Notes under the pieces: generated by a model
Databases searched by the model: none
Seen by the model: only the letters and a program-made list of their open reading frames with translations
What the model was told of the DNA's origin: nothing
In this document: positions 6,357 to 28,303 of the stretch, in pieces
How positions within the stretch are numbered: position 1 is the first letter of the stretch
How the letters are laid out: every line of letters begins with the position of its first letter
DNA from: an uncultured Verrucomicrobiota bacterium
GTDB lineage: Bacteria; Verrucomicrobiota; Verrucomicrobiia; Opitutales; Opitutaceae
Length of the DNA: 64,000 nucleotides
Direction: 5' to 3'
NCBI GenBank assembly: GCA_903898675.1
Contig: CAIUGM010000008.1
Coordinates: forward strand, 62,001-126,000
Translations under genes and position numbers: made by a program

Positions 6357-6857
6357 ATGGATGTTCAAGCCACACTGAATTTCTACGGGCGCACGGAAGA
6401 AGCGGTCGCGTTTTATGGCAGGGCGCTTGGCGCGGAGACTCTCTTCCTGATGCGGTTTCGCGACTGTCCCGACCCGGCCCAATCGAGACCAGGTTTTGAG
6501 GGGAAAATCTTTCACGCCACCTTTCGCATCGGTTCCACGGAGGTCATGGCGTCGGACTGCGGTTGCGAGACGACGCCGGCCGAAGCAACCTTTGCCGGTT
6601 TCTCTCTCGCCCTGCGCGTGGAAACCCCGGGCAAAGCCGAACGGTTCTTCGCGGCCCTCAGCGAGGGCGGTCAGGTCCAAATCCCCTTGCTGAAAACATT
6701 TTTTGCCGAGCGATACGGCATCGTGGTCGATCGCTTTGGCATCTCCTGGAAGATAATGGCCGAGTCTCCTGCGCAAAACGGAGAGGAAAAAACGGGAGGG
6801 GCGTCGCCCAACCGGACGTCAGTGCCAGCAGCCCTAAGCGACCGTGACTCAGCTTGA
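6357..6857 (+). CDS. VOC-superfamily (PhnB/glyoxalase-like) protein
   Basis: 166 residues. The opening (VQATLNFYGRTEEAVAFYGRAL) and the closing FGISWKIM are typical of PhnB-like VOC proteins, which have the glyoxalase/bleomycin-resistance fold. These proteins are often annotated as 3-demethylubiquinone methyltransferase-like but most have no proven reaction. After the normal end of the domain (about residue 138) there is an extra tail of roughly 28 residues, polar and without motifs. The gene reads plus-strand with the reductase-like gene at 6882, 24 bases apart, so the two may form a small operon. Substrate unknown. Confidence 0.85.
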   Translation: MDVQATLNFYGRTEEAVAFYGRALGAETLFLMRFRDCPDPAQSRPGFEGKIFHATFRIGSTEVMASDCGCETTPAEATFAGFSLALRVETPGKAERFFAALSEGGQVQIPLLKTFFAERYGIVVDRFGISWKIMAESPAQNGEEKTGGASPNRTSVPAALSDRDSA

Positions 6858-6881
6858 ACTTTGGAAGAATAGCCAAAAATC

Positions 6882-7487
6882 ATGCCAAACACTGATTCAC
6901 GCGTAACAATCCACATGGCCGCGAGCCTCGACGGCTTCATCGCGCGAAAGGACGGGCGGACCGACTGGCTCGAGACCTCGGACGAATTCGCGGGCGGAGC
7001 CACGATGGACCCGGCATTCGTCGAGGCCTTCCTGAAGTCGATCGGCTGTTACGTCATGGGTTCCAGAACCTATGAGACCGCGCTGAACTTTGAAGCCAAG
7101 GGGTTCGGCTGGGCGTATGGCGACAAACCCGTTTTCGTGCTCACCAGCCGCCAGTTGCCGCGGACCCGGGCGACTGTCGAGTTCTACTCCGGCGATCTCG
7201 CGCAACTCGTGAACGGGCGTCTGCGACCGGCGTTTCGCAGCATCTGGATGGCCGGCGGCGGCGTGGTGGCGGGCGAGTGCCTTCGCCGCGGGCTGGCCGA
7301 CGAAGTCCGTTATTCGATCCTGCCGGTCCTGATCGGCGACGGGATCCCCTTCTTCGACAAGCTCGACCGGGATGTCGCCCTTCACCTCAAGGAGGTCAAA
7401 GGCTACAAGAACGGCATGGTGGCGCTTTGTTATGAGGTGCGGACGGAAATGAAAAAGCCCGGCCAAGCGCCAGAGGCAACGGCCTGA
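6882..7487 (+). CDS. Dihydrofolate reductase-like (RibD C-terminal domain) protein
   Basis: 201 residues. The N-terminus IHMAASLDGFIARKDGRTDW and the central FRSIWMAGGGVVAGE match the RibD C-terminal/DHFR-like reductase fold that binds NADPH. Stand-alone members such as the YyaP/YwjB group are of unproven function; this is not the main folA, which lies at 29812. It follows the VOC-family gene by 24 bases on the same strand. The start ATG at 6882 gives the expected N-terminus. The specific substrate is not known. Confidence 0.88.
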   Translation: MPNTDSRVTIHMAASLDGFIARKDGRTDWLETSDEFAGGATMDPAFVEAFLKSIGCYVMGSRTYETALNFEAKGFGWAYGDKPVFVLTSRQLPRTRATVEFYSGDLAQLVNGRLRPAFRSIWMAGGGVVAGECLRRGLADEVRYSILPVLIGDGIPFFDKLDRDVALHLKEVKGYKNGMVALCYEVRTEMKKPGQAPEATA

Positions 7488-7523
7488 GTAAACGAAAGCA
7501 CTCGGAGCGTTATCAGCACTCGA

Positions 7524-7615
7524 TTGTCATCCTGAGCAGCGCGAAGGATCCATGCGTTCGTACGCGATGCCGCGTTTGGAAGCGTCTGGATCCTTCACTG
7601 CGTTCAAGATGACAA
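7524..7615. repeat. Inverted repeat, family F (TTGTCATCCTGAG type), copy 1
   Basis: Two 28-base arms face each other: TTGTCATCCTGAGC... (7524-7551) ending in GGATCC, and GGATCCTTC... (7588-7615) ending in GATGACAA. A second pair with arms of the same length is at 61669-61755, and a single arm is at 40509-40535. It sits between the convergent reductase-like gene and gpmI. Confidence 0.85.
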
Positions 7616-7635
7616 ACCTACCCTGAAGACAGTGC

Positions 7636-9225
7636 TTACCCCAGAATCAGCCCCTCGCCCGTCATCTCCGCCGGCTTGGGCAGGCCCATGAGTTGGAGGA
7701 CGGTCGGGGCGATGTCGGCCAGGCGGCCGCCGGTGCGCATCTTGGTCTGGCCGGCGGTGAGGCCCTCGCCCACGGCGAAGACTTCCACGAGATTGAGCGT
7801 GTGCGCGGTGTGCGGGCCGTTGTTGATCGGGTCCCACATCTGCTCGGCGTTGCCGTGGTCGGCGAGGATCACGGCCTTGCCGTTCTTGGTCGCGAGCGCG
7901 GCAAGCAATTCACCCAGGCCCTGGTCGGTCGCTTCGCAGGCCTTGATGGCGGCGGGCAGCGAGCCGGTGTGGCCGACCATGTCGGGGTTGGCGTAGTTGA
8001 CGACGACCAGGCCGTACTGGCCGGAAAGGATCGCAGCCTTGGCCTCGGCGGTCACCTGCGCGGCCGACATCTCGGGCTGCATGTCGTAGGTGGCGACCTT
8101 CGGGCTCGCCGGACAGGCATTCACCTGGCCGGGGAACGGCGTGCTGCGATAGTTGTTGAAGAAGAAAGTCACGTGCGGGTTCTTCTCCGTCTCGGCACAG
8201 CGGAACTGGCCGATGCCGGCACTGCTGACGACCTCGCCGAGGATGTGCTTCAGCGGCGCCGGTTTGCCTGAGATCACGTGGACCGGCAGGCCGGACTCAT
8301 ACTCGGTCATCGTCGCGTAGTAGAGATCGAGCTTCGCGCCGCGGTCGAACTCCTTGAAGCCGTCGATCACGAACGCCTTCGTGATCTCGCGCGGACGGTC
8401 GCCGCGATAGTTGTAGAACAGCACCGCGTCGCCGTTGCCGATCGTCGCCACGGGCTTGCCGTCCGCCCCGGTGATCCACGTCGCGGGCACAAATTCGTCG
8501 CCATGCTGGGTCGCGCTCAGCGGCTTCTCATAATAACTGGCGACGGCCGCCTCGGCGCTCGGCGCGGTGGCCTCGGCCTTTTGGCCCGTGAGCATGTAAT
8601 ACGCCTTCTGTACGCGCTCCCAGCGGTTGTCGCGGTCCATGGCCCAGAAGCGTCCGCAAACCGTGGCGATTTGACCGACGCCGATCTCCTTGAGATGGGC
8701 CTCGACCTGCTTGATGAAGCCGAGCCCGCTCTGCGGCGGCGTGTCGCGGCCGTCGGTGAAGCCATGGATGAACACGCGCCCCGCCAGTCCGTCCTCCTTC
8801 GCCTGGCGCAGAATGCCGTAAAGGTGCTCGAGCATGCCATGCACGCCTCCGTCGGAAACAATGCCCATCAGGTGGAGCTTGGCGGTGGGCGAACCCTTCA
8901 AGCGGGCGACGACCTCGTGCCACACGGGATTGGTCGCGAGCTGCTTCTCGGAAAACAGCTTGTTCAGGCGGACGAGTTCCTGGTCCACGATGCGGCCGGC
9001 GCCGATGTTCTCGTGGCCGACCTCGGAGTTGCCCATCTGACCGTCGGGCAGGCCGACGTCGAGCCCGCTCGCGGCAACGAGGGTCCGCGGGTACTTGGCG
9101 TGCAGCATGTCATCGCACGGCTTGTGGGCGAGGTAGACGGCGTTGAATTTGTTCTGCTCGGGGTGGGGGTTGGCACCCCAACCATCGCGGATGACCAGAA
9201 GAACGGGGGGACGGGTTGAATTCAT
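7636..9225 (-). CDS. gpmI: 2,3-bisphosphoglycerate-independent phosphoglycerate mutase
   Basis: 529 residues, slightly longer than the usual 510-515. The alkaline-phosphatase-fold metal site begins at VIRDGWG, and the phosphoserine nucleophile is Ser67 in GQMGNSEVGH. The second metal-binding region (VVNYANPDMVGHTG, ILADHGNAEQM) is complete. It converts 3-phosphoglycerate to 2-phosphoglycerate using Mn. Start ATG at 9225 gives MNSTRPPVLLVIRDGWG, as in the family. It is transcribed alone, divergent from a small unknown gene at 9340, and complements the gap-pgk-tpiA cluster at the right end of the window. Confidence 0.97.
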   Translation of the reverse strand: MNSTRPPVLLVIRDGWGANPHPEQNKFNAVYLAHKPCDDMLHAKYPRTLVAASGLDVGLPDGQMGNSEVGHENIGAGRIVDQELVRLNKLFSEKQLATNPVWHEVVARLKGSPTAKLHLMGIVSDGGVHGMLEHLYGILRQAKEDGLAGRVFIHGFTDGRDTPPQSGLGFIKQVEAHLKEIGVGQIATVCGRFWAMDRDNRWERVQKAYYMLTGQKAEATAPSAEAAVASYYEKPLSATQHGDEFVPATWITGADGKPVATIGNGDAVLFYNYRGDRPREITKAFVIDGFKEFDRGAKLDLYYATMTEYESGLPVHVISGKPAPLKHILGEVVSSAGIGQFRCAETEKNPHVTFFFNNYRSTPFPGQVNACPASPKVATYDMQPEMSAAQVTAEAKAAILSGQYGLVVVNYANPDMVGHTGSLPAAIKACEATDQGLGELLAALATKNGKAVILADHGNAEQMWDPINNGPHTAHTLNLVEVFAVGEGLTAGQTKMRTGGRLADIAPTVLQLMGLPKPAEMTGEGLILG

Positions 9226-17122: not shown

Positions 17123-18940
17123 ATGAAACGGCCACGCCCAGACCAGGATCTTCCCCCCGAGCGAACGGTGCCGCCTTTTCCCAACCGCTGGCAGCGCTGG
17201 CGGGCCAAGGTCCAGGCCTTTCACCTGCGCGACCTCTGGTGGCGGGTGTTGGATCGCTGGGAATCCAGCCGCCGGCTCCGGCGCGCCACGTACGGGTCAC
17301 TGCTGCTGGCCCTCGTGGCGGGTGGACTCTGGTGGGGCGCCTATCCTTTGTGGACCAAGCACAATGCCATTAAGATCGCCCGGAAATGGCTCGCGAGCGG
17401 CCACTACCAATATGCCGCCGACGCCGTGGCGCAGGCAATGAAAGTCGCTCCGGAAAGTCCCGAGCCGTGGCAGATCGCCGCCGAACTGGCCCGGCTGGGC
17501 GGGCAGAAGGACAAGGCGATCGAGTACGCCCGCCAGGCCTCGAATCTGGAACCGGAAAATGCGGAGCTGCTGATTGCCTGGGCGACCGAGGCCCTGCGGG
17601 CGGACCGGCCGCAACAGGCCGAGCAGGTTCTGGCCCGGGTGCCGGCCGACGAACTGGACCGTTCGTCCCAGGCCCAGCGGCTGTTGGGCGAACTTGCCCG
17701 CCGCAAGGTGCGCCTCACCGCGGCCAAAAAATACTTCGAGGCCGCCCTGCGGCTCGACGGACCGATCGCCAACGACGAGGTTCCCCTGGGCATCATCCTA
17801 CTGAACGCCACGGACGCGACCGAACGGAAGCACGGACTCGACCTGCTGGCCAAGTGGACCGCCGACCCGGAATGGGGCGTGGTCGCCTTGCGCCTGTTGC
17901 TGCAGGATGCGCTGGCGCGGAACGACCGGCCGGCCTTGTTGCAATGGGCGGAAGCCCTGCGGCTCAATCCCGGTTGCACCGTGGGCGACATGCCCACCTG
18001 CCTGCTGGCGCTCGCACGGGCCGACGAAGCGCGCTTCTCCGCCGTCCTCGCCGGCCTCGAAAAAGACCATGCGGTCAGCCCGGAGGCGGCAACCCAGCTG
18101 CTGAGCTGGCTGAACCAGATCGGGCGCAGCGCCGACGCGGTGCGCTGGATGCAGACCCTGCCGCCGGCCGGCCTGCAACGGCCGCCGCTGGCCGTGGCGG
18201 CGGCGGAAGCGCTGCGCCAGACGGCGGACTGGCCGGCGTTGCAGGCGTGGACCGACGGCAAGAACTGGGGCCCGGAGGCTGATTTTCTGCGCTGGGCCTA
18301 CGGCCTGAAGGCCGCCCGCATGCTGGACGACCGGGCACAGGCGGAGGAACTCTGGCGGACGCTGTACAGTCACGCCCAGCTGAACAGCGTGCACGCGCTG
18401 TTCGCCGGTTCGACCGTTTACACCTGGGGCATGATCCCGGAGGCCGAAGCCCTGTGGTGGCGCGCCGCCGGACAGGAAGGCAAGATCGCGATCGAGGCAC
18501 TCGGTTCGCTGGTCCGGCATTACCAGCAGCAACGCGATGCCGACGGCCAGTACCGCGTGTTCAGCCAGTTGCACCTGTTGCAGCCGCACGACGCAGCCAT
18601 CGGAAACAACTTCGCCTTCTTCGCCGCACTGACCGGACGGGAGCAGCGCACCGCCGAGGAGGTCGCCCGGGCAAATCTGACCGCCGCCCCGCTTAATCCA
18701 AACTACGCGGCGACGTACGCCTTCATTTTGTTCACGCAGAATCGCAGCAACGAGGCGCTGGCCGGGCTCAAGCCCCTGGCACCGGAGACCAGTCACTCCG
18801 AGTCGGTCGCCTTCGCCTATGGCCTCGCTCTGGCTGGCACGGGCAACAAGGCCACGGCAAAAACCGTCCTGGGGAAACTTGATCCCGCCACCCTGACGCT
18901 GACCGAGGTGGAATTAATCAAGCAGACGCTGGCCGACTGA
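17123..18940 (+). CDS. Membrane-anchored TPR-repeat protein
   Basis: 605 residues. A basic N-terminus (1-55) is followed by one transmembrane helix (about 57-75, YGSLLLALVAGGLWWGAYP). A long alpha-helical region with TPR-like repeats comes next (for example WQIAAELARLGGQKDKAIEYARQA at about 113-136). Helical pairs continue to the C-terminus. Such proteins act as scaffolds, and in Verrucomicrobia many are linked to exosortase or polysaccharide systems. The 3' end overlaps the 3' end of the PEP-CTERM-like gene by 27 bases. No catalytic motif is seen; the function is unknown. Confidence 0.82.
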   Translation: MKRPRPDQDLPPERTVPPFPNRWQRWRAKVQAFHLRDLWWRVLDRWESSRRLRRATYGSLLLALVAGGLWWGAYPLWTKHNAIKIARKWLASGHYQYAADAVAQAMKVAPESPEPWQIAAELARLGGQKDKAIEYARQASNLEPENAELLIAWATEALRADRPQQAEQVLARVPADELDRSSQAQRLLGELARRKVRLTAAKKYFEAALRLDGPIANDEVPLGIILLNATDATERKHGLDLLAKWTADPEWGVVALRLLLQDALARNDRPALLQWAEALRLNPGCTVGDMPTCLLALARADEARFSAVLAGLEKDHAVSPEAATQLLSWLNQIGRSADAVRWMQTLPPAGLQRPPLAVAAAEALRQTADWPALQAWTDGKNWGPEADFLRWAYGLKAARMLDDRAQAEELWRTLYSHAQLNSVHALFAGSTVYTWGMIPEAEALWWRAAGQEGKIAIEALGSLVRHYQQQRDADGQYRVFSQLHLLQPHDAAIGNNFAFFAALTGREQRTAEEVARANLTAAPLNPNYAATYAFILFTQNRSNEALAGLKPLAPETSHSESVAFAYGLALAGTGNKATAKTVLGKLDPATLTLTEVELIKQTLAD

Positions 18941-19819
18941 GGCCGCGCCCGGCTCGCGCAGGCGGAAACGCCGCACCACGAACAGACCCAGCGCGCCAAC
19001 CACCGGCAGCCACGTGCCGACTTCGGGCACGGGATTGCCGCCGACCGTCATGGCCGCACCCACCTGGTAGACCAGCAGCCCGCTCGGGTTCAAGGCGTTC
19101 GAGCCCGAGGTGCCGGTGGTGCTGTTGGTGTTGTCGACCACGATGGTGATGTAGTTGGTGCCGATCTTGAAATTGGCGTTGGCCGAACCGTTCGAGTCGG
19201 TGAAATTCTGCAGGTAAATCGACGTGGTATTATTCCAGGCGTTGGTCCGGGATGAGGCCAGGGTGCTGCTGCCGGTCTTGACGCTGCCATTGCCGTTCAA
19301 AGCCGGGTTGACGTAGATGGAGTATTGATCGTCCGACGCGATGGTCAGTGAAATCGAAATGTTGTTCGTGACCGCCGAGCCGTTGCCGCCTGCGCCGGAG
19401 ATCTGGAATGCCAGGGTGTACGTGTAGCTGGCCGCGTTGGTCCCCGTCGTGCCGTTACCCGGCAGGTAGTCACCGCCGGTATTCGTGGAACCACCGGCCG
19501 AGGTCGGACTCGCACCGGGCGGAACGATCCATTGGGCAGACCCGGTATTCTGCACCCAACCTGGATCGATATTTCCCCCATTCACGACATACGCCGGTCC
19601 TTGGTAAGTGGCGTTGCCACTCGTGCCATTCACATTGGCGTAGGTGACCGACCAATGTGGGTCCTGGGAAGCACCACTCAGCAGGCCGTAGGTGTTATTC
19701 ACGCCAGTGTAATACAGGCCGTTAATATTGGTCGCGGCGCCTCCATACATCAGGTTGGCCAGCCCGAGAAAAAGGGCGGCCAGAACTGAACCTGCTTTGA
19801 TTGCGTAGCTAAGTCTCAC
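18914..19819 (-). CDS. Exported protein with PEP-CTERM-like sorting tail
   Basis: 301 residues. It has a signal peptide (about 1-28, AGSVLAALFLGLANLMYGG) and a central region extremely rich in Asn, Thr, Gly and Ser that looks like a beta-sandwich surface protein. The tail VPEVGTWLPVVGALGLFVVRR has the Pro-Glu motif, hydrophobic helix and basic cluster expected for exosortase recognition. It continues about 15 residues beyond the usual end. No exosortase or EPS gene is in the window. Composition is less GC-rich than neighbours because of Asn codons. The C-terminal coding overlaps the TPR gene by 27 bases on the other strand. Confidence 0.8.
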   Translation of the reverse strand: MRLSYAIKAGSVLAALFLGLANLMYGGAATNINGLYYTGVNNTYGLLSGASQDPHWSVTYANVNGTSGNATYQGPAYVVNGGNIDPGWVQNTGSAQWIVPPGASPTSAGGSTNTGGDYLPGNGTTGTNAASYTYTLAFQISGAGGNGSAVTNNISISLTIASDDQYSIYVNPALNGNGSVKTGSSTLASSRTNAWNNTTSIYLQNFTDSNGSANANFKIGTNYITIVVDNTNSTTGTSGSNALNPSGLLVYQVGAAMTVGGNPVPEVGTWLPVVGALGLFVVRRFRLREPGAASVGQRLLD

Positions 19820-21893: not shown

Positions 21894-22946
21894 CTATGGC
21901 TGCTTCGCCGCGGGCGGTTCCACCTTAAATTTCTCCCAGCCGGCGAGGATCGCCTGGACCACCGGGTTGCCGACGCGGAAGGCCGCCTCCAGTGACGGGA
22001 TATAGCCCGAGTAATGCCCGATCTTCTCGCCGAACATGCTCTGCGCCGCGGTCGCGCCCGGCCACTGCATGTCGTAATTGCTCGCCGTGCGCAGCACCAG
22101 CAGCCGGCGGACATCCGCCTTGCCCGCCCGGGTGAGCCACGTCAGCGCCTGCGCGGTGCCGGTGTCCTCCATCGCCGTCGTCACGAAATTGCCTCGGCCG
22201 TCGGTGTGATACTTCACCCACGCGTTGGCCCACTCGTTCATCAGCTTGCCGTGCCAGTACGTCTCCGACGATAGCGTGGCGCCCTTCAGCACGAACGGCT
22301 GACGCTGCGCATTGGGAAACCCGGTATAGACCGCCCGGCGCTCCTGGAGCCCCGGGCTGTCCGCGAGCGGCGTATTTTTGGTCAGCTCGTAGGCCCAGTT
22401 GACCAGGCCGGGCTCCAGTTGGAAAACCTGGCTGGTCTCCTCGGTGCTGCGCGGCATCTCATACGGCCGGCCCTTCCGCAGGGGCACGTACCCCGTCGGC
22501 CAGTCGGCGGGGATCTCGCGCGGATCGATCTCATGACCCAGGTCGCCGTTCACGATGAAATCTGCCCAGACCGCGCTGCCGATCGAGCCATCCTCCGGGT
22601 CGATGCCCGCGATGCCCGCCACGAGCCAGTAGCTCTTGGTCAGGTCAAAACGCGGATCACTGCCGAGGGCCATGATCGTGGCGGCGGCGCGCGTGTTGCC
22701 GATGCCCGTGACAATGCCGATGACCGAGCCGTCGGCGTTGCTGCGCACATCGTGGTAGGCCGAGGGCAGCGCGTAGGTCCGGTCGAGCTTCAGGCGCTCG
22801 ACCCAGAACTGAAACTCGCCCGGCACATCGCCGGAATCCTGGCCCGGCTCGAACATGGCGACGACGACCACCTTGGGGGCGATGACCTCGGCGTGCCCCG
22901 CGTTGAGTCCGGCCAGCAACAGGAACAGAAGGGTGATTTTGCGCAT
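21894..22946 (-). CDS. Exported purine nucleoside permease (NUP) family protein
   Basis: 350 residues with a signal peptide (cleavage likely after GHA at about residue 19). The body matches the NUP family first described in Candida: KVVVVAMFEPGQDSGDVPGEFQFW, VTGIGNTRAAATIMALG, YWLVAGIAGIDPEDGSIGSAVWA and MEDTGTAQALTWL. The fold resembles nucleoside phosphorylases, so a periplasmic nucleoside-binding or cleaving role is as likely as transport; there are no membrane helices. It heads an operon with recF 10 bases downstream. Confidence 0.9.
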   Translation of the reverse strand: MRKITLLFLLLAGLNAGHAEVIAPKVVVVAMFEPGQDSGDVPGEFQFWVERLKLDRTYALPSAYHDVRSNADGSVIGIVTGIGNTRAAATIMALGSDPRFDLTKSYWLVAGIAGIDPEDGSIGSAVWADFIVNGDLGHEIDPREIPADWPTGYVPLRKGRPYEMPRSTEETSQVFQLEPGLVNWAYELTKNTPLADSPGLQERRAVYTGFPNAQRQPFVLKGATLSSETYWHGKLMNEWANAWVKYHTDGRGNFVTTAMEDTGTAQALTWLTRAGKADVRRLLVLRTASNYDMQWPGATAAQSMFGEKIGHYSGYIPSLEAAFRVGNPVVQAILAGWEKFKVEPPAAKQP

Positions 22947-23028
22947 CGCCCCGAGTCAGCAGCCTGCATGCCGGATGTCCATTTGGTTCTTGCGGATTGC
23001 GGGCGCGAAAGGCTTTTTTGTCCCTTCT

Positions 23029-23550
23029 ATGAGCAAAGCCACCGCCTCCACCGAAGTCGCCGTGTTGAAGACCAGCTACGGCGAGATGACCCTCGCCTTC
23101 TGGCCCGATGTCGCCCCGGCGACCGTCGAGAATTTCAAGAAGCTCGCCCGCGCGGGTTTCTATGACGGCACCGCGTTCCACCGCATCATCAAGGGTTTCA
23201 TGATCCAGGGTGGCTGCCCCAACACCAAGGAAGGCGAGAGCGGCATGCCCGGCACCGGCGGCCCCGGCTACAAGATCAAGGCCGAGTTCAACCCGAAGGC
23301 CCACGTGCGCGGCGTCATCTCCATGGCCCGCTCCTCGCACCCCGATTCCGCCGGCTCGCAGTTCTTCCTCTGCCACGGTGACGCCAAGTTTCTCGACAAC
23401 CAGTACACCGCCTTCGGCCAGCTCACGGCCGGCGACGATGTGCTTGAGCGCATCGCCAATGTCCCGACCAAGTCCGGCGGCGGCGGTGAGAAAAGCACGC
23501 CCATCGACCGCGTCGCCCTCGAGAGCGTCAAGATCGTGGCCGTCGCCTGA
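23029..23550 (+). CDS. Cyclophilin-type peptidyl-prolyl cis-trans isomerase
   Basis: 173 residues, a single cyclophilin domain. The catalytic arginine motif is FHRIIKGFMIQGG, followed by SAGSQFFLC and FLDNQYTAFGQLTAGDDVL. It would catalyse prolyl isomerisation; the start MSKATAS has no signal peptide, so it is cytoplasmic. The frame remains open further upstream, but the ATG at 23029 gives the usual N-terminus. A clear terminator follows 28 bases after the stop. Confidence 0.95.
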   Translation: MSKATASTEVAVLKTSYGEMTLAFWPDVAPATVENFKKLARAGFYDGTAFHRIIKGFMIQGGCPNTKEGESGMPGTGGPGYKIKAEFNPKAHVRGVISMARSSHPDSAGSQFFLCHGDAKFLDNQYTAFGQLTAGDDVLERIANVPTKSGGGGEKSTPIDRVALESVKIVAVA

Positions 23551-23578: not shown

Positions 23579-23608
23579 AGCCCGCGCCTCACCGCGCGGG
23601 CTTTTTTT
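23579..23608 (+). terminator. Intrinsic terminator after the cyclophilin gene
   Basis: AGCCCGCG (23579-23586) pairs with CGCGGGCT (23595-23602) and is followed by seven Ts. Confidence 0.92.
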
Positions 23609-23664: not shown

Positions 23665-25254
23665 TCATTTAGCCCCCGTCTTCGCCGTTGGTATCACCGC
23701 GACCGGCCCGGCGTTGTTCTCGAGGGTGGCGCGGATGATTGAAGCAACCTGGGCCACCCGTACACTGGGCTGCAGCCGGTCGACTTGATCCAACATTTGC
23801 AGTGCCGCCGCCCGGTCCTTGAGCCGCGCCCAGCTCCAGGCAAGGGCCAGCAGGGTATGCGGCTGGTCGTTCAGCGTGCCGAGGTGACGCTGAACCAGAT
23901 TGATGTTCGCCAGCGAGGGCTTCGCCGCCGTGGCCTCCACCCAAGCCATGATCTCGTACGCGGAACTCTGCGCCGGGGCGCAGTCGATGGAGCGCTGCAG
24001 CAGCGTCCGGAGCAGCGTCACTTCCTTTTCGGGCAGCCGGAAATAAACATCGAACTGACCGAGCCAGCGCTCGGCTTCCAGCTCGCCGAGTTCGCGGTAG
24101 ATGGCGGGGTTGGTGGAGCCGAGGTCGATGGCCTGGTTCCAGCGCTCGCGCGCCAGTTCGCGGTCGCCGTCGAGCCAGGCATCGTTGCCGAGCACCTCGC
24201 GCAGCCGCGCATCAGCGGGGTTCTTATCCTGGGCGCGCAACAGGGTAAGGCGCGCCAGTCCGCCCCGGGTGATCCGGCACGACAGCTCCGCCAGCCGCAC
24301 CAGCATTTCGCCCGGTGGAACCGGCCGCACCAAGTAGGTGCCGGGATCCTCGGTGCGGGGGCGGGCAAGCTTGTTCTGATTGAAATGCCCGGCGACAATG
24401 TAGCGCTTAAGTTTCTCCTCCAGCTGGGGGTAATCGTAGCCGAGCAACTCCCGGCAAGCCTGGCGCAGCAGCTCCGGGTGGTCCGGCGTCTGGCCTTGCC
24501 CCGCCAGGCGCCGGAACTGTTCGAGACGATCCCGCGGGAGTCCGGCAAGACCGTAGTAGCAGTAATGCAGAAAGGCCCAGGACTCCGCATAGAACAAGCC
24601 CGCGTGGTCGCTATCCTTGAAGACCGCCGAGTCGTGCGTGATCGCGAAGAGCTGCCCGAGCGGAATCAGTTCCTTCTGCCTCAGTTCAAGGATCGAGCTC
24701 TCAATCGGCAGACCCATGATCACCTCGCCATAGTCCTCCTCGAGGGTGGAGAAAAGCTCCGCCATGCCCTCATTGTACCAAGGGGGCGGGGTCAGCTCGG
24801 CGATGCGGAAGAGGTAATGGATGTATTCGTGGTAGACGGTCCGTCGGCCCGCATCCCCGTCGGTCGGGGCGAGGGAGATGACGGTACGGTCCGTCTGGTT
24901 TTCGCAAAAGCCCGCCAGGTTTGCATTCTGGGCGTATTCCGGCGGCCAATACCCGTGAAAATCCCGGTTGGAATCGAAATAGAAGATCGTGACCGGCTGT
25001 GCCACCCGCGCCGTCAGCTTGAAGCTGTCGAGAAACACCGCCCGCAGCAGCTCCATGTGGCCCAGCACCTCCCGTGACTCGTAGTCGCTGCTCTCGCTGT
25101 ACATCTCAAAATGGGGCGAGTGGTAATAGTGCCACTTCTTCCCCAGGCCGGGGAATATTTCCGGTCGGGCCGCGGATGTCCCGGTCGCGACAGCCAACAG
25201 GAACAGCAGGCCGACGGGCCATCGCAGGAAATTGCGGTGGGGCGATAAGGACAT
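23665..25254 (-). CDS. Exported gluzincin-like metallopeptidase with C-terminal helical repeats
   Basis: 529 residues. It has a signal peptide (about 1-29) and a peptidase-MA-like domain with zinc motif His142-Glu143-x-x-His146 (YHEYIHYLF). The downstream glutamate is Glu162 in WYNEGMAELF. The second half is alpha-helical and TPR-like. It would act outside the cytoplasmic membrane on an unknown protein substrate. A paralog at 25411-27033, 156 bases upstream on the same strand, aligns along its whole length but lacks the zinc site. The spacing permits cotranscription. Family membership is clear; cleavage activity is inferred from the intact motif. Confidence 0.87.
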   Translation of the reverse strand: MSLSPHRNFLRWPVGLLFLLAVATGTSAARPEIFPGLGKKWHYYHSPHFEMYSESSDYESREVLGHMELLRAVFLDSFKLTARVAQPVTIFYFDSNRDFHGYWPPEYAQNANLAGFCENQTDRTVISLAPTDGDAGRRTVYHEYIHYLFRIAELTPPPWYNEGMAELFSTLEEDYGEVIMGLPIESSILELRQKELIPLGQLFAITHDSAVFKDSDHAGLFYAESWAFLHYCYYGLAGLPRDRLEQFRRLAGQGQTPDHPELLRQACRELLGYDYPQLEEKLKRYIVAGHFNQNKLARPRTEDPGTYLVRPVPPGEMLVRLAELSCRITRGGLARLTLLRAQDKNPADARLREVLGNDAWLDGDRELARERWNQAIDLGSTNPAIYRELGELEAERWLGQFDVYFRLPEKEVTLLRTLLQRSIDCAPAQSSAYEIMAWVEATAAKPSLANINLVQRHLGTLNDQPHTLLALAWSWARLKDRAAALQMLDQVDRLQPSVRVAQVASIIRATLENNAGPVAVIPTAKTGAK

Positions 25255-25410
25255 GATTAACGGGCCGTCAACCCGGCCGCGTCAGCCTGCCGTCCCGCGG
25301 CGCCCGGGCAAAACAAAAGCCCGTCAACCGCTCACCCTGGTTAGCGCCAGGATCCAGGCGGCGGCCTGAACCGGCTGACTCGTTTCCGCTGAGCCGGAAA
25401 CCCGGCGAAC

Positions 25411-27033
25411 TCAGCCTGGGTTTTCCAGGTCCAGCTTGATTTGTGGCACCGACTGGTCCGGCTCCGGCTTGGCATCCGGCCGGCGGTCAGGGTTAACGGG
25501 ACGATTCTCCAGTTTCGCCCGGATTTGCTCGGCGCCCGATCTAACCCAGTCGCTGGGGCCGGACCGGTCGAGGGCATTGAGGATCTCGACCGCCCCGGCC
25601 TTGTCGTCGAGGCGCAGCCGAACGAGCGCGAGGGCCAGCAGGGTGCGGTCCTGCTGCTGTAGCCGCGGAAAGTTTGCCTGCACGAGGTTGATATTGGGGA
25701 TTTGCGGCGCATTGGCCGTGGCCTCCACCCAAGCCAGCAATTCGTACGCCGCGGCCAGTTGGGGCTCGGCCGCAATGGTTTTTTTCAACAGGCTGCGTAG
25801 CTCGGCGGCCGTGTCATCGGGCAGCCGGTAGTAGAGATCAAACTGGCGGAACCGCTGCTGGCTCTCCAGCAGGCAAAGCTCATGCAGCACCGCGGGGTTG
25901 GAGGAACCGGCCGCCACGGCCCGCTTCCACCGGTCGAGCGCGCCGTCCCAGTCGCCGTCCTTGATGGCATCGGCGCCGAGCACCTCGTTGATGCGCGCGG
26001 CATCATCCCGCGGTTGATCGAGGGCCTGCAACAGGATCAGTTTGCCCTGCGCCGACCGGTTGATCTCGAGCGCCACCTCGGCCAGGCGGAGGTTGATTTC
26101 GTCCAGCGGCACCTTGCGCATTTCGTAGCCCCTGGCCGGTTCCACCGCCGGCACGGACAGCTTTTGCCACCCGTAACGCCCGCCATGGAAATAATGGTCC
26201 AAATCCTCGTTCATGGTCTCATAGGAAAGCCCCAGCGAATCCTGGAATTTGCGGCGGACGGCCTCGGCATCAAAATTGCGGGTGTTTTTCAGGGCGAAGC
26301 CAACAAACTCCGACACGGCCTTCGGCGGCAGCTGGTTTTTCCCGAAATACAGGTAGTGGACCATCGCCCAACTCTCGTCGTGAAAGAGGTTGTTCGCCTG
26401 ATTGGCCCGGAACGCGGTGGATTTATCATCCAGGCCGAACATGACCTGGACCGGGATCAGGGTGGCGCGCTGCAACCGCTGCACCTGCGCCTCGTTGGCC
26501 TTGCCGAGTTCCAAACTGTCGGAGTTTACGACCAGATTGGCGAAGAGCTCGGACACCCCGTAAGTGTACCAGGCCGGACTCGGCGCATCGAGCAGGCGGA
26601 ACAGGTGAAAGGCATAGCTGCCAAACGCGAGCCGCTGGGCCGAGTCGTAGTCCGGGAGTGGCGCCACCGTCAGGACCCCCCGGTCCCACTCCGCGTCATA
26701 GAACGCGGCGAGATTGTCGACCTTCCGGTAGGCCTCCGGCTTGTAGGCGTCGAAATATTTCTCGCGCGAGAAAAAATAAACCGTGACGGGCACGGTGCGG
26801 ATGGGCGTAAAGCCAAACGTCTGGAAGAAAATCGCGTGCACGAGCTCCAGGTTGTGCAGGAGCAGGCGCGAATCGCTTTCGGAATTCCGGCTGTAGAGCT
26901 CGAAATGTTTCGAGTGGAAAACGCGCCACTTCTCGTCGGCGCCGGGCATCAGGGCCGAGGTACGCGGGAGAAACGCCAGCACTGCGCACAACATCAAGGT
27001 CCGGCCCGGCCACTTTCGGGTACTCACGGTCAA
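25411..27033 (-). CDS. Exported paralog of the adjacent metallopeptidase with the zinc site lost
   Basis: 540 residues with a signal peptide (about 1-27). It aligns with the 23665-25254 protein over the N-terminal domain (KWRVFHSKHFELYSRNSESD against KWHYYHSPHFEMYSESSDYE) and over the helical C-terminus (YELLAWVEATANAPQIPNIN). At the catalytic site HEYIH is replaced by GSYAF (138-142) and the distal Glu by Tyr158, so every metal ligand and the general base are gone. The frame is intact and codon use is normal, so it looks like a maintained non-catalytic partner rather than a pseudogene. Role unknown. Confidence 0.85.
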   Translation of the reverse strand: MTVSTRKWPGRTLMLCAVLAFLPRTSALMPGADEKWRVFHSKHFELYSRNSESDSRLLLHNLELVHAIFFQTFGFTPIRTVPVTVYFFSREKYFDAYKPEAYRKVDNLAAFYDAEWDRGVLTVAPLPDYDSAQRLAFGSYAFHLFRLLDAPSPAWYTYGVSELFANLVVNSDSLELGKANEAQVQRLQRATLIPVQVMFGLDDKSTAFRANQANNLFHDESWAMVHYLYFGKNQLPPKAVSEFVGFALKNTRNFDAEAVRRKFQDSLGLSYETMNEDLDHYFHGGRYGWQKLSVPAVEPARGYEMRKVPLDEINLRLAEVALEINRSAQGKLILLQALDQPRDDAARINEVLGADAIKDGDWDGALDRWKRAVAAGSSNPAVLHELCLLESQQRFRQFDLYYRLPDDTAAELRSLLKKTIAAEPQLAAAYELLAWVEATANAPQIPNINLVQANFPRLQQQDRTLLALALVRLRLDDKAGAVEILNALDRSGPSDWVRSGAEQIRAKLENRPVNPDRRPDAKPEPDQSVPQIKLDLENPG

Positions 27034-27211: not shown

Positions 27212-28303
27212 TCAGGAGTCGAAGCCGACCGCCTTCGCGACCGCGTCGTAGGTGATCCGGCCGTTGCGGGTGTTCACGCCGCGGGCCAGGCCCTTGTGCT
27301 CGCTCAGGGCGCGCTCGACGCCCTTCTGCACCATCATGGCGACAAACGGCTCGGTAGCCTGCGTCAGGCCCATGGTGGACGTCCGGCCGACGAGCGCCGG
27401 CATGTTGGGCACCGCGTAATGGATGACCCCGTGCTCCTTGTAGGTCGGCTTCTGGTGCGAGGTGGCGTGGACGGTCTCGATGCAGCCGCCCTGGTCGATC
27501 GCAATGTCGCAAATCACGCTGCCCGGGCGCATCTGGGCGACCATCTTGTCGGAGACCACGATGGGCGCCTTCGCGGCGGGAATCAGCACGGCGCCGATGA
27601 GCAGGTCGGCATCCGCGACCGCGTGCTCGATGTTGGCGGGGTTGGACATCAGGGTGACGATCCGGCCGCGGTACTCGGTGTCGAGCGCCTCAAGCTTGCG
27701 CGTGTCGAGGTCGAGCACGGTGACACGGGCGCCCATGCCGGCGGCCATCTGCACGGCGTGCGCGCCGGAATTGCCGGCCCCGACCACGACCACATGACCG
27801 GGCATCGTGCCGGGAATGCCGCCGAGCAGCACGCCGGAACCGCCGAGCTGCGACTGGAGAAAGTAAGCCCCGATCTGGATCGAGAGCCGGCCGGCGATCT
27901 GCGACATCGGTTTCAGCAGCGGGAATGCGCCATCCACGCCCTCGACCGTCTCGTAGGCGATGCCGAGGATGCTCTTCCGGCAAAGTTCCTTGGCGAGGGC
28001 CGGGCCGGCCGCGAGGTGCAGGTAGGTGAATAGTGTCTGGCCCTGCTGGAGGAGACCGTACTCGGCCTCGAGCGGCTCCTTCACCTTCAGGATCACGTCG
28101 GCTGTTTTCCAGACCTTGGCCGCCGAGGGCGCCAGACTGGCGCCGGCGGCCTTGTACTCCTCATCGGTAAAGCCGGCGCTGTTGCCGGCCGACTTTTCGA
28201 TGAGCACCTTGCCGCCCAGTGCCACGACGCGGCGGCACAGGCTGGGGGTCATTGAAACGCGGGTTTCACCGATCTTAATTTCCTTGGGGACTCCGATAAT
28301 CAT
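27212..28303 (-). CDS. ald: Alanine dehydrogenase
   Basis: 363 residues. The N-terminus MIIGVPKEIKIGETRVSMTP is characteristic. The catalytic region LKVKEPL and YLHLAA is present, and the NAD-binding Rossmann motif is VVVGAGNSGAHAVQMAAGMGA. It interconverts alanine and pyruvate plus ammonia with NAD. The ATG at 28303 is the family start; the upstream open frame is not coding. It is a single-gene unit with its own terminator, divergent from the GIDE-LemA gene. Confidence 0.96.
   Translation of the reverse strand: MIIGVPKEIKIGETRVSMTPSLCRRVVALGGKVLIEKSAGNSAGFTDEEYKAAGASLAPSAAKVWKTADVILKVKEPLEAEYGLLQQGQTLFTYLHLAAGPALAKELCRKSILGIAYETVEGVDGAFPLLKPMSQIAGRLSIQIGAYFLQSQLGGSGVLLGGIPGTMPGHVVVVGAGNSGAHAVQMAAGMGARVTVLDLDTRKLEALDTEYRGRIVTLMSNPANIEHAVADADLLIGAVLIPAAKAPIVVSDKMVAQMRPGSVICDIAIDQGGCIETVHATSHQKPTYKEHGVIHYAVPNMPALVGRTSTMGLTQATEPFVAMMVQKGVERALSEHKGLARGVNTRNGRITYDAVAKAVGFDS

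Follow-up and report, generated by a model that had tools for sequence, protein, structure and literature searches.

We analyzed a 64,000-nt stretch of DNA from an uncultured Verrucomicrobiota bacterium of the family Opitutaceae (GCA_903898675.1, contig CAIUGM010000008.1, positions 62,001-126,000), hereafter called the window, which carries two neighboring genes for related metallopeptidase-like proteins. P0001 has a complete zinc site, and P0002 has lost it. Members of this protein family are called live when the HExxH motif and the distal Glu are present and dead when the site is absent; G numbers refer to genomes and L numbers to loci. In the direction of the minus strand, the pair is laid out as follows.

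25411..27033, minus strand: P0002, dead, 540 residues, TTG start, with the same layout as P0001.
25255..25410, minus strand: gap between P0002 and P0001, in which no terminator-like site was found on this strand.
23665..25254, minus strand: P0001, live, 529 residues, ATG start, with a signal-peptide-like N-terminus (judged by eye), a gluzincin-type domain at approximately residues 30-306 and C-terminal helices resembling tetratricopeptide repeats (TPR).

P0002 lies upstream and P0001 downstream, with 156 bases between them, and the gap free of a terminator-like site makes a single transcript for both genes possible. A GTG at 27027, read from the sequence, is an alternative start for P0002. Both N-termini carry stretches that look signal-peptide-like by eye. 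The two proteins align over 508 residues with 38% identity (327 bits, E 4e-110). The zinc site of P0001 consists of H142-E143-x-x-H146 (HEYIH) and E162, the latter within W-Y-N-E-G, and it conforms to the gluzincin motif of HExxH plus a downstream Glu ligand. At the aligned positions of P0002, GSYAF replaces HExxH and a Tyr replaces the distal Glu, and the motif is lost. An initial annotation of the window had described two proteins that align lengthwise, with HEYIH and Glu facing GSYAF and Tyr; our analysis agrees with it, its coordinates were correct, and both genes are on the minus strand. A search of the window's genome at E <= 0.01 returned P0001 and P0002 as the only family copies.

The initial annotation also held that the dead gene is retained, and this was supported by open frames in relatives and by ratios of nonsynonymous to synonymous divergence (dN/dS) well below 1. 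The closest relatives of P0002, in G147 (62% identity) and G093 (54%), and a less close one in G163 (40%) are all open frames, and the dead copies of G147 and G133 are broken by contig ends only. In pairwise codon models of four pairs within the window's dead clade, dN/dS was 0.006-0.073, point values that mean little because synonymous divergence (dS) is saturated, and dN/dS = 1 was rejected for all four (twice the log-likelihood difference, 150-326). The unsaturated dead pair of G163 and G133 gave a dN/dS of 0.18 over 170 codons in two fragments; the adjacent live gene gave 0.13. Constraint on the pseudo-peptidase domain is no looser than on the TPR part. Among the three closest dead orthologs, identity is 62% in that domain versus 57% in the TPR part, and in a live clade (alpha) it is 61% in the peptidase domain versus 54%; across six dead groups, domain identity divided by TPR identity ranges from 0.90 to 1.08, and the two live groups compared have values of 0.89 and 1.12.

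AlphaFold2 models built from a six-row alignment reached a mean predicted local distance difference test score of 82.5 for P0001 and 81.2 for P0002, with a predicted template modeling score of 0.78 each, and their elements follow in nearly identical order, with a mixed domain up to approximately residue 306 and TPR-like helices after it. For both N-terminal domains, the top rows of VIA-align, which re-ranks the 1000 candidates of Foldseek, were peptidase domains of M9 collagenases (ColG, ColH, ColT and those of Vibrio and Grimontia) with Z 13.8-15.1; in these superpositions of predicted models, 220-250 residues aligned at a root-mean-square deviation of 3.4-4.9 and 9-16% identity. Helical-repeat proteins ranked next, from Z 12.9 and 11.9 downward. 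P0002 was run by VIA-align only. Among the best 50 rows of Foldseek itself for P0001, no collagenase was listed, and the collagenases surfaced after re-ranking. Because VIA-align re-ranks Foldseek candidates and identity is only 9-16%, we took the M9 likeness as a match of fold and not of membership. For both P0001 and P0002, the predicted structure is an M9-collagenase-like domain with TPR helices. The helical repeats come after the peptidase domain here, whereas M9 enzymes have an activator domain in front of it. The W..EG.AE motif of the present family looks similar to that of M9. BepA of E. coli, an M48 peptidase, also has a gluzincin domain followed by TPR helices; its structure 6ait stood at ranks 23 and 37 of the Foldseek list for P0001 with TM-scores of 0.19-0.24, a shared layout that does not imply kinship.

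In Pfam, P0001 matched Peptidase_MA_2 (PF13485) weakly (E 0.0004, 20.7 bits against a curated cut-off of 32.4), and P0002 matched DUF1570 (PF07607) weakly (E 0.027, 15.2 bits against a curated cut-off of 22). Neither matched PF01752 (M9) at E up to 1. TPR matches were also seen in the Pfam scan of the window proteins, and P0002 returned only weak TPR, DUF1570 and chaperone-like matches in Pfam plus NCBIfam. Of 28 family members, 6 matched PF13485, 10 matched PF07607 and 2 matched Pfam M9 (best 1.3e-5) at E <= 0.01. A family profile compared with solved structures returned mainly TPR proteins.

The loss of the zinc site has occurred repeatedly in this family. Our main tree held 128 domains, 42 of them dead, with the metal-site columns removed (139 rows of at least 250 residues, less 6 under 370 residues and 5 near-duplicates). 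It requires at least 12 changes between live and dead, or 11, 10 and 8 after branches below 80, 90 and 95 are collapsed; its long branches warn of misplacement. In a more careful tree of 38 rows, P0002 groups with the dead genes of G147 and G093 (100/100), the dead gene of G163 comes next (92/97), and P0001 falls into a separate clade with G161, G203 and G207 (100/100). The two genes are non-sisters in both trees, each built without metal-site columns. A recent tandem duplication from P0001 to P0002 was therefore rejected. The dead clades carry replacements of their own: GSY..Y in that of the window, where the Gly, Ser and distal Tyr are common to the three closest orthologs of P0002, EF..Q in 10 rows, R/K-E..E in 7, mostly S/A..R in 6, LQ..T-like in 4, and several small ones.

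Some of these sites deserve separate mention. The ten-row clade (L100, L142, L174, L178, L180, L190, L195, L196, L197) mostly has E-F for H-E and Q-G for E-G. Seven dead members (L105, L107, L188, L194, L198) have Arg or Lys for the first His and keep both Glu residues, and the basic side chain may take the place of the metal; of the seven, four form two dead-dead tandem pairs. At L153 3-1079 (G016), both His residues are Gln (QEYLQ) and the Glu residues are retained, which looks like a recent loss. A live-type member at L144 3828-5693 (G221:C171) is broken by one in-frame TAG, indicating that live genes decay as well.

A profile of 28 members (E <= 1e-40) matched 85 of the 225 genomes of Opitutaceae; in a draw across the phylum, all 14 genomes matched among 288 lay inside this family. 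At most seven candidates were scored per genome, which makes member counts lower bounds. Within the genus, 12 of 21 genomes had a member at E <= 1e-5 with either P0001 or P0002 as the query, and the window's dead lineage was present in 3 of the 21. The fetched set comprised 113 loci and 146 family domains, leaving out the profile matches of G031 and G066. With eight fragments that offer no usable metal-site columns set aside, at least 94 domains have HExxH and the distal Glu and at least 44 do not; classification by alignment column and a plain HExxH search agreed throughout. Outside this count stand L245 (G136), L268 (G002) and L270 (G051), all without HExxH, and the extra members from rescoring described next. 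Among the 85 genomes with fetched members, 50 have live ones only, 22 have both and 13 have dead ones only; G002, classed as live only, also carries a member without HExxH. The 13 dead-only genomes were rescored with all first-look candidates at E <= 1e-10, and every extra member read lacked HExxH. Some very divergent members without HExxH may be old non-peptidase relatives and not recent losses.

The initial annotation had suggested an active/inactive pair at the envelope, with P0002 as a regulatory or scaffolding partner, and asked whether the inactive form is always adjacent. For the window's own dead lineage, it is: a same-strand live gene lies next door in 4 of 4 loci (the window, G147, G093 and G163), with the dead gene first. 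These live neighbors differ, however: those of the window and of G147 fall into separate clades, that of G093 is of a distant HEMTH type, and that of G163 belongs to yet another clade. Across the wider family, a dead member may also be solitary or adjoin other dead ones, and 59 of 88 live members stand alone. In 23 arrays, live-dead neighbors were seen 13 times against 12.7 expected by shuffling (p 0.54); this count joins genes less than 1000 bases apart, which misses the live-dead neighbors of L161, and omits five near-duplicate loci. With differing live neighbors, dead-only genomes and random mixing, the initial interpretation was supported in part: P0002 may, but need not, be the regulatory partner of one particular peptidase, and obligate live/dead pairing was not supported.

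Dead genes also appear, vanish or get replaced as whole genes, as seen in three close locus pairs. L061 and L139 match at 91-92% identity in both flanks and over most of the live gene (dS of the live pair, 0.49), whereas 42% of residues agree between their dead genes, for which dS is saturated. A replaced dead gene, or different paralogs retained at the two loci, accounts for this better than rapid change. The island of divergence, at approximately 4976-6869 of L061, covers the dead gene plus the end of the live gene. L065 carries a dead gene that is missing from the otherwise collinear L063, and G163 has a second dead gene unseen in G133. A natural fusion occurs at L085 3961-7074 (G051:C1:530000-541000, on a 4.17-Mb contig), where one frame of 1038 residues joins a dead and a live family domain; the dead half has HGxxC and keeps the distal Glu, and the halves are sisters in the tree at 100.

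Overall, we consider it probable that P0002 is a functional pseudopeptidase, a non-catalytic binding protein maintained by selection. It combines what defines a pseudopeptidase, namely a homologous predicted fold, loss of the ligands and the catalytic Glu, and selection that keeps the gene, and it would be inactive. In the mechanism that we propose, P0002 is exported, has lost zinc and activity, and keeps the gluzincin fold and TPR helices without the zinc ligands and catalytic Glu. The empty groove and the TPR surface would bind polypeptides, such as substrates, envelope proteins or partner proteins; such binding would make cutting dispensable, and it is for binding that selection would hold the gene. 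P0002 probably shares a compartment with P0001 and may contact it without needing that particular partner, and a complex of the two is possible. Catalysis has been given up often, also in genomes without a detected live member, which makes it unlikely that the dead form serves only as the partner of one live enzyme. Given the many separate site losses, binding rather than cutting may often be how the family works.

Several findings weigh against this interpretation. The P0002 lineage is missing from 18 of the 21 genomes of its genus, which makes the gene dispensable. The unsaturated dN/dS stems from a looser relative and is slightly above that of the live gene, and in the L085 fusion the dead half compared with the live half gave 0.37, a weaker constraint; this fusion fits a partner role equally well. 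Tandem arrays hold 24 of 44 dead members against 29 of 88 live ones (Fisher p 0.024, uncorrected for relatedness), which fits a partner role too. Finally, 4 of the 13 dead-only genomes (G242, G213, G123 and G046) each keep one unread weak match.

The alternative that survives best, which we regard as possible but unlikely, is that P0001 pairs with P0002 in a heterodimer, obligate or regulated, whose dead half shapes the cavity, by analogy with mitochondrial processing peptidase and the bacterial M16B enzymes. The two genes are adjacent on one strand, their gap is free of terminator-like sites on this strand, all four loci of the window's dead lineage adjoin a live member, and in L085 a single frame unites a dead with a live copy. 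M16 offers a precedent, as described in PMC11266112 and PMC12731061: active and ligand-less homologs are encoded by neighboring genes in M16B pairs (mitochondrial processing peptidase, TTHA1264/TTHA1265, SPH2681/SPH2682 and AlbE/AlbF), and single-chain forms of approximately 1000 residues exist. The tandem live/dead genes here, with an inactive homolog encoded beside an active one, and the L085 fusion resemble this arrangement. However, the motif is HExxH here and HxxEH there, the live neighbors are non-orthologous between genomes, and some genomes have dead members but no live one that could be detected. The absence of an excess of live-dead neighbors and the mostly solitary live members also speak against a heterodimer. 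A wider version, which we hold to be doubtful, is a modular system of active and pseudo gluzincins in which live peptidases share a slot with cassette-swapped, sometimes fused pseudo-subunits; the dead half would set substrate choice or holding and the live half would cut, an arrangement like mitochondrial processing peptidase reached many times.

We find it improbable that dead members serve as recognition or decoy modules with a fast turnover, directed for example against foreign proteases and exchangeable as cassettes. The divergent dead genes of L061 and L139 in nearly identical surroundings, the presence or absence of a dead gene in the two other locus pairs, and the slot described below, which hosts members from across the tree, all fit such modules. 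Ordinary birth-and-death evolution of a tandem array fits the turnover too, however, and the comparison is limited to three pairs. Still less can be said for P0002 as a decaying pseudogene with a frame as yet unbroken. The initial annotation had named absence or a frameshift in close relatives as the mark of decay; the lineage is indeed absent, as a whole gene, from most of the genus, and every metal ligand is gone, but no frameshifted copy was seen. Differences among the open frames of relatives are greatest at third codon positions, the fold is predicted to be intact, all three closest orthologs have the same Gly, Ser and distal Tyr, and the codon-model results disfavor decay. That P0002 gained other chemistry at a remodeled site is very improbable: this conserved trio and the recurrent sets of other dead clades are compatible with it, but the profile matches of P0002 are the weak TPR, DUF1570 and chaperone-like ones only.

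Pseudopeptidases and active/inactive pairs are known kinds; what is new is that, within one bacterial family, the site was lost in parallel many times and dead genes turn over. According to PMC11266112, known pseudo-metallopeptidases are mostly eukaryotic, with few bacterial M16 pairs, and in the searchable content of one open library we found no paper on the P0001/P0002 family. With approximately a dozen site losses, a natural fusion, and closely matching loci whose main difference is the dead gene, this family would permit a direct test of what a dead peptidase is for, and of whether swapping the dead neighbor alters what the live one cuts.

The pair occupies a recurrent chromosomal slot, flanked in the window by the following features.

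27212..28300, minus strand: ald, alanine-dehydrogenase-like, upstream flank of the slot.
22855..23550, plus strand: cyclophilin-like gene, convergent downstream flank of the slot.
23579..23602, plus strand: terminator-like hairpin with a T run, between the convergent genes.

In the window, ald is followed by the dead gene, the live gene, the convergent cyclophilin-like gene and a recF-like gene; the names of the flanking genes are putative assignments from their sequences. An ald or cyclophilin-like gene lies near a family gene in 48 of 113 loci, and ald is co-directional with the family gene in all 36 loci that show both. In a survey anchored on ald, 64 of 120 genomes matched at E <= 1e-120, and 58 slots were examined, leaving out those of G126, G139, G114, G111, G090 and G042. 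A family gene lies downstream of ald in 20 of the 58, and 38 are without one; in 23 of the 38, a single stretch shows both ald and the cyclophilin-like gene. The slot is thus recurrent yet often empty, and its occupants come from across the whole tree. Filled slots in five genomes of the genus (G198, G200, G203, G204 and G207) have no dead gene between ald and the live one.

A diverged member hidden in an empty slot was considered and rejected: the gap in L242 holds an unrelated frame, and the other gaps were scanned with the family model only. This frame (L242 3478-6117, G026), flanked by ald and the cyclophilin-like gene, has 879 residues and a CxxCH haem-type motif. In L268 and L270 (G002 and G051), two tandem family-like frames without HExxH lie at approximately 6520-9201, about 5 kb downstream of ald. 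Elsewhere in the window, a minus-strand frame at 18914-19819 ends in a stretch similar to a PEP-CTERM sorting signal.

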